A stretch of DNA of 35,132 nucleotides from positions 1-35,132 of the forward strand of contig JAAYWP010000012.1 of assembly GCA_012516535.1 (NCBI GenBank), read 5' to 3'. The stretch is from Syntrophomonadaceae bacterium. Lineage in GTDB: Bacteria > Bacillota > DSM-12270 > Thermacetogeniales > Thermacetogeniaceae. The notes under the pieces are model-generated. The model saw nothing but the letters and a program-made list of their open reading frames with translations. It was not told the origin of the DNA and searched no databases. The translations under genes were made by a program, and so were the position numbers. Below, piece by piece: positions 31,509-35,132 of this stretch. Numbering within the stretch: the stretch's first letter is position 1; every line of letters begins with the position of its first letter.

Positions 31509-31586
31509 TGGTCGGGATGACTGGATTTGAACCAGCGACCTCACGGTCCCGAACCGTGCGCTCTAGCCAAACTGAGCTACATCCCG
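31509..31586 (-). tRNA. tRNA-Pro (CGG)
   Basis: On the - strand the acceptor CGGGATG pairs with CATCCCG, the anticodon stem-loop CACGG-TTCGGGA-CCGTG gives anticodon CGG, the T-loop is GGTTCAAATCC and CCA is encoded. It is transcribed alone. Confidence 0.95.
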
Positions 31587-31842: not shown

Positions 31843-32829
31843 TTGGCTGAAAAGGGAGATAATGGAATTTATTGTGACGGACAGCGGCTTATTTATGTAA
31901 CTTACAGTTTCGAAGATTATCAAACTATCTGGGGTGGCAGCCTGAGTGATTATAAAGATTTCCTGCTGGCTCGCCAGCGAAAGTTCCAACAGTTACAGGA
32001 AGAACACTTTGGTGCCTGGATTGTCCTGGTCCCTTTTGACAGAAAAGATTTTTCAAGCTGGTTAGAGGAAAACCCCCTGTATAAACAGTGCAGCAACCAA
32101 CATGCCCACTGGGCATTAAGGGTTGCCAGCGATCCATCTCATTTAGAAAAGATTCGCAAACGGCACCCGCTCCAGAACTACATTTTGAAAGATGAATCTC
32201 TCAAGGCAATTCTTTTTGCTTGGTTCCTGCCTGTGATCGCTCCCAATGCCTCTTCAATGCGCAAACTGAGAGAGCCCATCCCACAGCAGCTTGTCAACCA
32301 GATCAGACAGGAACTGATCACAGGACTACTAGCACCACTTCCCCAGTTTCAGCGCTACTCAACTACACGAGGCACCGGTGTAGCCCTCCTGCCAGGGGAC
32401 AGATTTGTCCATGCAGATACCATCGACCAGATAAGTGAACACACCATAGAATCACTGCTGCAAACATGGGATAGCTGTTCACCATACTATTTCAGCATTT
32501 CAAAACAGTACAGCTTCCCTATCTGCCCTCACTGGCATTTCCCACGGGTAGCAGTTCTCTGTTTCCCTTTAATTGTATTGGGATGTGCCTTTGATTGTGA
32601 AACAGTTACAATACGGATCAGCAGAGCTGACAGTAAAGACTTGCCCCTTCATATCTGGAAAAATTATTTTCAATACCTCAATGTGAGTTTGTACCCCGGA
32701 CGGGGCACCGATTTTGCCGCAGCCGGTTTTACAAAACACATCTACAACGAGATCCAGAGAGAACTGACCTCAGAGGCAGAACTCCTTGAGCCTTCTAAAT
32801 ACCCTGCCTATCTGTGGCGTGTCAAATAA
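31843..32829 (+). CDS. Hypothetical protein, family not recognised (328 aa)
   Basis: I do not recognise this protein. It is soluble by composition, rich in aromatic residues and His, and has no signal peptide. Visible features are an N-terminal DGQRLIYVTYSFEDYQTIWGG, a PFDRKDFSSWLEENP stretch, several Trp-His pairs (HAHWALRV, CPHWHFPR), an aliphatic segment at about 240-255 (VAVLCFPLIVLGCAF) and a C-terminal YPGRGTDFAAAGFTKHIY. It has seven Cys, not in a metal-knuckle pattern. The TTG at 31843 lies six bases after GGAGGTG, making the start convincing; a TATAAT at 31817-31822 stands just before it, implying a very short leader. It is a single gene, convergent with uppP, with a shared terminator at 32886-32905. 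Confidence 0.75.
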   Translation: MAEKGDNGIYCDGQRLIYVTYSFEDYQTIWGGSLSDYKDFLLARQRKFQQLQEEHFGAWIVLVPFDRKDFSSWLEENPLYKQCSNQHAHWALRVASDPSHLEKIRKRHPLQNYILKDESLKAILFAWFLPVIAPNASSMRKLREPIPQQLVNQIRQELITGLLAPLPQFQRYSTTRGTGVALLPGDRFVHADTIDQISEHTIESLLQTWDSCSPYYFSISKQYSFPICPHWHFPRVAVLCFPLIVLGCAFDCETVTIRISRADSKDLPLHIWKNYFQYLNVSLYPGRGTDFAAAGFTKHIYNEIQRELTSEAELLEPSKYPAYLWRVK

Positions 32830-33766: not shown

Positions 33767-34417
33767 CTAACGAATACGCCGCACACTGCTTTTTCCCTGG
33801 TGCATTTCCATCAAATATGCAATATCTGCAGAATCGGCCAGATGCTGGTTGTGGGAAACCATAATTACCTGCCGCCCCAGTGATTGGCTGAAACCCTTGA
33901 GAAATCGCGCCAACTGTGGAGCATATTCTTCAGAAACATGCTTCCCCGGTTCATCCAGGACTGCAGGCCCACCCACAGGTGTTGGAAAGGCATGGAGCAG
34001 AGCAAGCCGCAGAGCGAGAGAGATGACATCCACAACCCCTCCCCCTCGGGCGTCCTGGGGGGCAGTTTCTACCCGGTAATCACCATAATTTGAACAAACA
34101 TAAAACTCTGCCTCCGGTCGATCTCGCTTCTCCTCTATTATTACCTTGAATTCCATGTCAGCTCCAAAGACAAACTGCAGTGCCTGAGTAACCATCAGTT
34201 CCACCTGGCGGCGCCCCTGCTCCCGGGCATGTTTTGCCGCCTCCAGCAGCAGGAGGCGCACCTGTTCCAAGCATTCCTCATCCTGGCGGGCCTTTTCCAT
34301 CTCCTGCTTCAGGGAAGCTTCTTTTTCCAAAAGCTTGGCCTGTTCCCCCCGCCGTCTGTGATATACCGCTTTCAGCTGATCAAGATTCCTTTTCAAATGA
34401 TCAATACCGCCGCTCAC
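33767..34417 (-). CDS. Rad50/SbcC-like ATPase, C-terminal lobe as a separate protein
   Basis: The 216-residue protein starts with a coiled coil (about 1-80: HLKRNLDQLKAVYHRRRGEQAKLLEKEASLKQEMEK) and ends with an SMC-type C-terminal ATPase lobe: a degenerate signature QDARGGGVVDVISLALRLALL (123-127 for ARGGG), Walker B GPAVLDEPGKHVS (LDEP 154-157) and switch VIMVSHN (188-190). There is no Walker A, so it needs an N-terminal lobe from another chain, probably the gene entering at the right edge. The GTG start at 34417 overlaps the previous stop as GTGA, with AAAAGGAG in front. It likely works in DNA end processing, possibly with an Mre11/SbcD-like nuclease outside the window; that is inferred. 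Confidence 0.75.
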   Translation of the reverse strand: MSGGIDHLKRNLDQLKAVYHRRRGEQAKLLEKEASLKQEMEKARQDEECLEQVRLLLLEAAKHAREQGRRQVELMVTQALQFVFGADMEFKVIIEEKRDRPEAEFYVCSNYGDYRVETAPQDARGGGVVDVISLALRLALLHAFPTPVGGPAVLDEPGKHVSEEYAPQLARFLKGFSQSLGRQVIMVSHNQHLADSADIAYLMEMHQGKSSVRRIR

Positions 34418-34692
34418 CGGGAACGCTCCTTTTCTAACAGATCCCATGGAATCAGCTCATTTGCTTCATCCAAGAGCTGCTCCATCTCCTGCTTCAAGCT
34501 CGCTATTTTGGCCCCCAATTCCTCTGGTTTAACACCATACTCAGCAGCCTTCTGGTAGAGCCTCTCTCTCTGTTGCTCCAGCAGTTCCTTTTTACTTAAA
34601 GCTCGCTCCCTTAAGTCACGGGACCTGCGCAGAGCCTCTTTCAGATGATTGATCTGCTTTTCATACAGAGCTTGCTCCTTAGATTCGGCCAT
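34414..34692 (-). CDS. Short coiled-coil protein between Rad50-like halves
   Basis: The 92-residue protein is charged and helical almost throughout (KEQALYEKQINHLKEALRRSRDLRERALSKKELLEQQRERLYQKAAEYGVKPEELGAKIASLKQEMEQLLDEANELIP), with heptad-like spacing of Leu and a break at YGVKPEELG. It has no Cys and no catalytic motif. It sits 12 bp after a gene that ends just past a CPVC zinc-hook-like motif and overlaps the ATPase-lobe gene by 4 bp. The simplest reading is that it is a piece of the Rad50 coiled coil encoded separately. It could instead be an independent accessory subunit. The ATG at 34692 has GGGAGGGG in front. Confidence 0.65.
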   Translation of the reverse strand: MAESKEQALYEKQINHLKEALRRSRDLRERALSKKELLEQQRERLYQKAAEYGVKPEELGAKIASLKQEMEQLLDEANELIPWDLLEKERSR

Positions 34693-34704
34693 ATCTTCCC
34701 CTCC

Positions 34705-35132
34705 CTATCTATATTCATCCAATACCCTCTCCACAGCTTCCTGATCCAGTTCTCCATAACAAACTGGACACCTCTCAATCTTCAGCAAGAACTCCCTGAA
34801 TTTCTCCAAATACTGGTTGATTTCCTTTTGATAGCGCTCTGCTGCCAGACAAGACCCCCGGTAGGTCTTTTCTAATTCCTGCCACTCCTGTCGCATTTCC
34901 TGATAAACTGCCAATCTGCGTCCGTTTTTCTCCATTTTTTCGAGATTATTTTCTACCTTTTCCAATTCTTTTGTCCGCTCTTTGATAAACAATATTTTCT
35001 TCAGATAGCGGTCTATATTTTCCAGTTCAACCTGTACCCGGCTGAGCTCCCTCCACTTCTGAAAAAGCGGATCAACCTTCTGGAGATGAGCATCGATCAC
35101 TGGTACCTGTGCGGTTTCATTAATTACCTGTA
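34705..35132 (-). CDS. Rad50/SbcC-like protein, coiled coil with zinc-hook motif (5' end outside window)
   Basis: The frame is open to the right edge, so the N-terminal part is missing; at least 141 residues are visible. They are coiled-coil throughout (KKILFIKERTKELEKVENNLEKMEKNG and later YQKEINQYLEKFREFLLKIE) up to CPVC at 111-114, counted from the GTG at 35100, then YGELDQEAVERVLDEYR and the stop. CPxC after an ascending coil is the Rad50/SbcC zinc hook, where two molecules share a zinc ion. Here the chain ends 17 residues past the hook instead of returning. The N-terminal Walker A lobe is expected to the right. The GTG at 35100 is an internal codon, not a start. Confidence 0.7.
   Translation of the reverse strand, partial: QVINETAQVPVIDAHLQKVDPLFQKWRELSRVQVELENIDRYLKKILFIKERTKELEKVENNLEKMEKNGRRLAVYQEMRQEWQELEKTYRGSCLAAERYQKEINQYLEKFREFLLKIERCPVCYGELDQEAVERVLDEYR

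Follow-up and report, generated by a model that had tools for sequence, protein, structure and literature searches.

Rad50 occurs as three separate chains in a large group of Firmicutes, and the split into three genes is real biology and not a sequencing error. The most likely reading is that these chains and an Mre11-like nuclease form a heteromeric end-processing complex of the Mre11-Rad50 type, which has HerA-NurA as a partner in the family of the window and stands in for SbcCD. The window is the whole stretch of DNA analysed, 35,132 nucleotides from a Syntrophomonadaceae bacterium, and its right end at position 35132 is also the end of the contig. Three leftward ORFs adjoin this end and encode part of an N-half (N), a small coil protein (S) and a C-half (C) (Table 1). 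Only the C-terminal 141 residues of N lie in the window and comprise arm repeats, the hook and a short tail; in a congener whose N-half is complete, residues 294-434 correspond to them with 84% identity. The zinc hook matched the Pfam model Rad50_zn_hook with E 9e-5, just under the cut-off of the model. The stop of N and the start of S are separated by 12 nt with a strong ribosome-binding-site-like stretch, and C begins with GTG, overlapping the S gene as GTGA. No Walker A motif was present in the C-half sequence. The Walker A lobe (N-lobe) was found neither in the window nor elsewhere in its own assembly, a fragmented draft of 162 contigs that is 82% complete. The sequence-only reading had described three leftward genes at these positions with a CPVC motif, a 92-residue coil and a GTGA overlap, a break 17 residues after the hook, and a C-half with Walker B and switch His and no Walker A. 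All of this held, and all ORFs were confirmed.

Table 1 Positions of the three-chain Rad50 genes, their motifs and fused forms (numbers without a locus prefix refer to the window)
Feature	Position	Strand	Remark
Rad50 N-half, C-terminal part	34705-35130 (to contig end 35132)	-	ORF open at contig end
CPVC zinc-hook motif of N-half	34759-34770	-	followed by 17 residues, then N-half stop
S, 92-residue helical coil protein	34414-34692	-	invariant Pro56 at helix break
Rad50 C-half, 216 aa	33767-34417	-	short coil and C-terminal ATPase lobe
Altered ABC signature R-GGG of C-half (RGGGV vs LSGGE)	34037-34048	-	ungapped alignment to P. furiosus Rad50
Walker B VLDEP of C-half	33947-33961	-	Asp155, Glu156 and Pro157 invariant
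Altered D-loop KHVS of C-half (VS for LD)	33932-33943	-	Ser162 invariant
Switch histidine His189 of C-half	33851-33853	-	invariant
Mre11 + N-lobe + C-lobe fusions, ~700 aa	L202:4152-6254, L203:4083-6170	-	next to addAB-like genes
Mre11+N fusion, S and separate C	L151:5627-9663		218,948-bp contig

The junctions between N, S and C are identical in all four genomes of the window's genus (its own and three others). Comparison with congeners gave dN/dS values of about 0.22-0.34 for N, 0.08-0.16 for S and 0.05-0.11 for C, all well below 1. Because all three are under purifying selection and share their junctions within the genus, we regard them as real genes. The same split arrangement was found in a one-contig genome of the window's family (G007).

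A first search covered 61 genomes and gave C matches in 30, a few of them weak matches to SMC proteins. The Mre11-like nuclease, N-half, S and C-half occurred together as separate genes in 26 of the 26 relative loci fetched, and S was present in all 27 loci of this first set. The usual order is nuclease, N-half with Walker A, S and C-half, often after NurA and HerA; the phage-like locus L063 departs from it, with an extra gene separating S from C and with the nuclease downstream of C. A wider scan of species genomes comprised 276 relatives, of which 80 were kept, plus 17 viral loci. No single ORF containing both N and C was found among these 80 relatives and 17 viral loci, and wherever the arm was present in the loci examined, N and C were encoded by separate genes. 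In 15 loci, from Acetivibrio, Pseudobacteroides and kin, C was present without N within the fetched stretch; in the loci read, this unlinked C lay after a folD-like gene and, in several, before an rny-like gene. The N-half was located elsewhere in the genome in 8 of 8 searched clostridial genomes with unlinked C, and adjoined Mre11 and S in the 6 of 6 loci read. In the 6.9-Mb Pseudobacteroides assembly, N lies at 1.47 Mb and C near 0.39 Mb. No recognisable S was seen beside N and C in one cellular locus, and S was absent or too weak in two viral loci (loci with N and C in which S was unrecognisable or too weak to call: L144, L155, L161).

Profile searches connected the separate chains to the lobes of a single known protein. 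Against the PDB, the N profile matched the N lobe of P. furiosus Rad50 (E 2.5e-12) and the C profile its C-lobe (E 6.5e-12), and such matches to two lobes of the same solved protein support one split Rad50-type ATPase. The C-half also matched the NCBIfam archaeal Rad50 models (E 2e-7), the closest sequence relatives being archaeal Rad50. The nuclease profile matched Mre11 (E 1.4e-9), and all phosphoesterase metal-ligand motifs are invariant in the Mre11-like nuclease. In the N-lobe of relatives, the Walker A motif GPSDxGKS has invariant Gly, Asp (Asp34), Gly and Lys, and Gln136 of the Q-loop is likewise invariant. Walker B Asp155-Glu156 and switch His189 of C are invariant and aligned to P. 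furiosus Rad50.

Two motifs depart from the canonical form. The signature of C is RGGGV, with Gly at the Ser position and Val at the Glu position, and does not meet LSGG[E/Q]; its GGG is invariant (alignment A1) and the change is common to the whole family. In the D-loop, Val-Ser stands for the canonical Leu-Asp, again family-wide and with Ser162 invariant. The signature and the D-loop are the two motifs that act across the Rad50 dimer, and both are altered in the whole family. In canonical Rad50, mutations of these motifs disturb ATP-driven dimerisation or hydrolysis (PMC7247530, PMC7049730), and D-loop and signature mutants lose ATP-driven dimerisation while end tethering is still possible (PMC7049730). 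The family-wide pattern leads us to infer an adapted rather than a broken chemistry, in which ATP hydrolysis itself is inferred. A replacement of the signature Ser by Arg, as in the inactive Rad50 S793R (PMC7247530), was considered and rejected: in the ungapped alignment the Ser position is occupied by Gly and not by Arg, and a fused lineage has Cys or His at the position of the window's Arg.

The coiled arm is carried by N. CPxC is invariant in 36 N-halves, and the N-half has this hook instead of the globular hinge that lies between the coils of SMC proteins; the window's genome also encodes a separate 1199-aa SMC-type ORF. The arm is built from 47-residue repeats, with a lag-47 autocorrelation of 0.215 against -0.629 +/- 0.022 for shuffles and a second peak at 94 (an example of such an arm is L066:7409-8713). 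Across 76 loci the hook lies near residue 410, 456 or 503, i.e. in steps of whole repeats, and the lengths of S and C stay constant as the arm varies (Spearman -0.04, p 0.73, and -0.16, p 0.16, respectively; 76 loci). At about 235-330 aa, the N arm is longer than the tail, S and the C coil together (about 155 aa). With these lengths, cutting a Rad50 coil into three pieces is not enough to explain the arm. In canonical Rad50/SbcC one chain has matching outgoing and returning coils, which is not met here, since the genes are separate and only the arm varies in length. AlphaFold2 predicted a Rad50-like lobe for N (mean pLDDT 80, pTM 0.37) with helices that are broken or of low confidence near the repeat joints, and the best Foldseek match of this model was P. 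furiosus Rad50. For S it predicted a helix at 2-51, a break at 52-55 and a helix at 56-80, the break being at the invariant Pro; a structure search with the S model gave no matches. Two simple arrangements did not hold up. That S is a copy of the 47-residue arm repeat is unsupported, as S scores no better than reversed S, and the tail, S and C coil do not tile exactly along the arm, as N varies in units of 47 residues at constant length of S and C.

In most loci of the window's family, NurA and HerA are encoded directly upstream of the block, although this adjacency is not universal among relatives. In the window's own genome, NurA, HerA and the beginning of the Mre11-like protein are encoded on another contig (C47). 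This contig ends at a position homologous to L041:6970 and the window resumes at about L041:8699, so that about 1.7 kb is missing; from this homology we infer that the contig should abut the window across the gap. Co-occurrence was assessed across the phylum in 300 genomes, all but the window's own with a completeness of at least 90%; of these 300, 51 have C, 124 SbcC, 224 AddA and 60 NurA. SbcC was present in 2/51 genomes with C vs 122/249 without (Fisher p 1e-10), and NurA in 44/51 vs 16/249 (p 8e-32), both uncorrected for phylogeny. AddA is absent from 32 of the C-bearing genomes; NurA was found by Pfam in 31 of these 32 and by the family profile in the remaining one (G018). In families f14 and f16 some genera have SbcC and others C. 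As co-occurrence, and without correction for phylogeny, the three-chain form nearly excludes SbcC and tracks NurA.

Natural fusions join Mre11, the N-lobe and the C-lobe and thereby tie these components to one function. Mre11 is fused to N, with C separate, in four viral contigs and in the Paenibacillus polymyxa plasmid pSC2, where the order is Mre11+N fusion, S, C and a HerA homologue. In family f44 (G070, G295) a single chain of about 700 aa comprises Mre11, N-lobe and C-lobe without arm, hook or S. In public plasmid records the C-half is mostly annotated as "hypothetical protein". In Bacillus phage vB_BboS-125 an AP2-domain gene (L211:5149-5721) lies between the N and S genes, an insertion reminiscent of gene splitting by homing endonucleases.

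We propose a Rad50-type ATPase assembled from three polypeptides that would work with the Mre11-like nuclease encoded just upstream; physical assembly is inferred. The N chain, with Walker A, Q-loop and repeat-built arm, would pair with a second N chain through zinc at the CxxC hook, this dimerisation again being an inference. The C chain carries signature, Walker B, D-loop and switch His on a short coil. Since N supplies one set of motifs and C the other, each ATP head would be an N+C composite. The role of S is inferred: it may be a helical arm component, probably packed against the N arm in the stretch from the C coil to the hook. In terms of pathway and activity, both inferred, the complex would most likely bind DNA ends, which the nuclease would trim or nick under ATP control and which may then be handed to HerA-NurA for resection before RecA, the complex standing in the place of SbcCD. 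Gene order, conservation, motifs, separateness of the genes and co-occurrence are observed directly. What speaks against this reading is the family-wide replacement of the signature Ser and D-loop Asp, the arm-length mismatch and the missing S in a few loci, and all evidence comes from sequences and models without biochemistry. We therefore describe the complex as a divergent variant of Mre11-Rad50 and not a standard member, as it fails on signature, D-loop and single chain; it probably works like Rad50, with the activity inferred.

The earlier proposal that the ATPase is assembled from separate subunits is thus supported by the conserved split and by the Mre11-like nuclease and Walker A lobe directly upstream in relatives. 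The checks it had named included a profile search, which matched C and N to Rad50 lobes and the nuclease to Mre11; conservation of the split, which was confirmed in relatives; the upstream gene, which in relatives is not unrelated; and frameshifts, excluded by conserved junctions, selection and unlinked N and C. Its "degenerate" ARGGG signature is refined to a family-wide trait with invariant GGG, accompanied by the D-loop change. Its much shortened return coil held only in part, as the coil is not simply shortened and the N arm grows in 47-residue steps beside fixed S and C. Of the two functions it had offered, DNA end processing or defence, repair and end resection with HerA-NurA is the better supported.

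Three rival explanations were weighed against this. That sequencing or assembly frameshifts, or pseudogene formation, cut a normal single-chain Rad50/SbcC could be argued from the fragmented draft of the window genome; against it stand the constant boundaries across the genus (four genomes), the purifying selection acting on N, S and C, and the one-contig genome with the same split. N and C genes are moreover unlinked in eight genomes, which refutes this reading and leaves it all but excluded. A mobile anti-phage or anti-plasmid defence complex, not acting in repair, is unlikely. In its favour are copies on phages, plasmids and prophage-like loci (including L063 and L064), PADLOC MADS models that match C (mad3, E 2.6e-11) and HerA of L042 (mad8, E 1.4e-24), and weak matches of several SMC-like defence ATPases to N. 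However, the genes occur as a single chromosomal copy in conserved places across families (with nurA-herA, or between recA/cinA-like and rny-like genes), the three-chain form replaces SbcC, and the PADLOC matches are partial or generic, with no specific full-length match to the proteins of a named system.

We also doubt that the complex is mainly a structural tether of DNA ends in which ATP-driven head closure is weak or lost and catalysis is left to the nuclease and HerA-NurA. The family-wide replacement of Ser by Gly in the signature and of Asp by Ser in the D-loop would fit, as canonical Rad50 mutants at these motifs can still tether ends (PMC7049730). Against it, the invariant Walker A Lys, Q-loop Gln, Walker B Asp-Glu and switch His suggest retained catalysis, and the f44 lineage retains the heads without arm and hook, whereas a pure tether would be expected to preserve arm and hook. 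Beyond the preferred end-processing reading, one may go further and picture a variable repeat-built N arm onto which separate helical chains pack, namely the C coil and one or perhaps several copies of S, with a two-chain head and non-canonical closure. We lean slightly against this bolder reading; if true, head opening could involve exchange of the C-lobe chain.

Like archaeal Mre11-Rad50 and bacterial SbcCD, the module pairs a calcineurin-type nuclease gene with an adjacent ABC-type ATPase that has a CxxC-hook coiled arm, Walker A and Q-loop in its N-terminal part and Walker B and switch His in its C-terminal part. It differs in its three chains, in the replaced signature Ser and D-loop Asp, and in a 47-residue-repeat arm without matching return coil in N. 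The Mre11/SbcD-like partner is recognised by its adjacent gene with metal-ligand motifs and by natural fusions; formation of a complex is inferred. The adjacency of nurA, herA, mre11-like and rad50-like genes resembles the archaeal HerA-NurA-Mre11-Rad50 cassette (Constantinesco 2004, cited in PMC9960219), except that it occurs in Firmicutes and that its Rad50 is split; published work describes bacterial NurA-HerA as confined to a few groups, e.g. Deinococcus-Thermus (PMC9960219). Separate N and C lobes forming one head are also seen in crystallographic Rad50 (PDB 1ii8, 3qkr; chains A and B), but there the two chains are an engineered construct, whereas in the three-chain family they are the natural state. 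Fusions of Mre11 in front of Rad50 are known (Yoshida 2011, PMC3175470), and in the fusion protein of Bacillus phage 0305phi8-36 one P-loop segment was not observed (Yoshida 2011, PMC3175470). By the size of its contig, L151 may be this phage; if so, its separate C gene would be the missing segment. PHROGs has phage homologues of N (family 16465, E 4e-72), S (family 18563, matched by copy L063 with E 3e-14) and C (family 15167, E 1.5e-59) as separate families under the entries "exonuclease", unknown and "ATPase", without a link that would mark them as pieces of a single ATPase. Searches of the open-access literature gave no account of a split Rad50, which, with this restriction, is weak evidence of absence. 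Apart from function, the similarity of the C-half and HerA to mad3 and mad8 makes a shared origin of MADS and the three-chain module conceivable.

The mechanics of SMC and Rad50 proteins have been argued from the assumption that a single chain forms both the outgoing and the returning coil of the arm, with the hook at the turn. A widespread family with the return half as separate chains, together with an armless lineage of about 700 aa, provides natural experiments on arm, hook and head closure, and how a composite Rad50 head and arm is assembled and works can now be asked. For many Firmicutes without SbcC, and often without AddA, an end-processing system linked to HerA-NurA is added.

Elsewhere in the window, the gene downstream of the C-half is one which we take to be uppP/bacA-like. 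Beside it, a 328-aa ORF of unassigned function (31843-32829, forward strand) has homologous ORFs in the same place in several relatives. Five tRNA genes are present, for Gly, Phe, Asp and Val in a cluster at 1357-1711 and for Pro at 31509-31586, all on the reverse strand.
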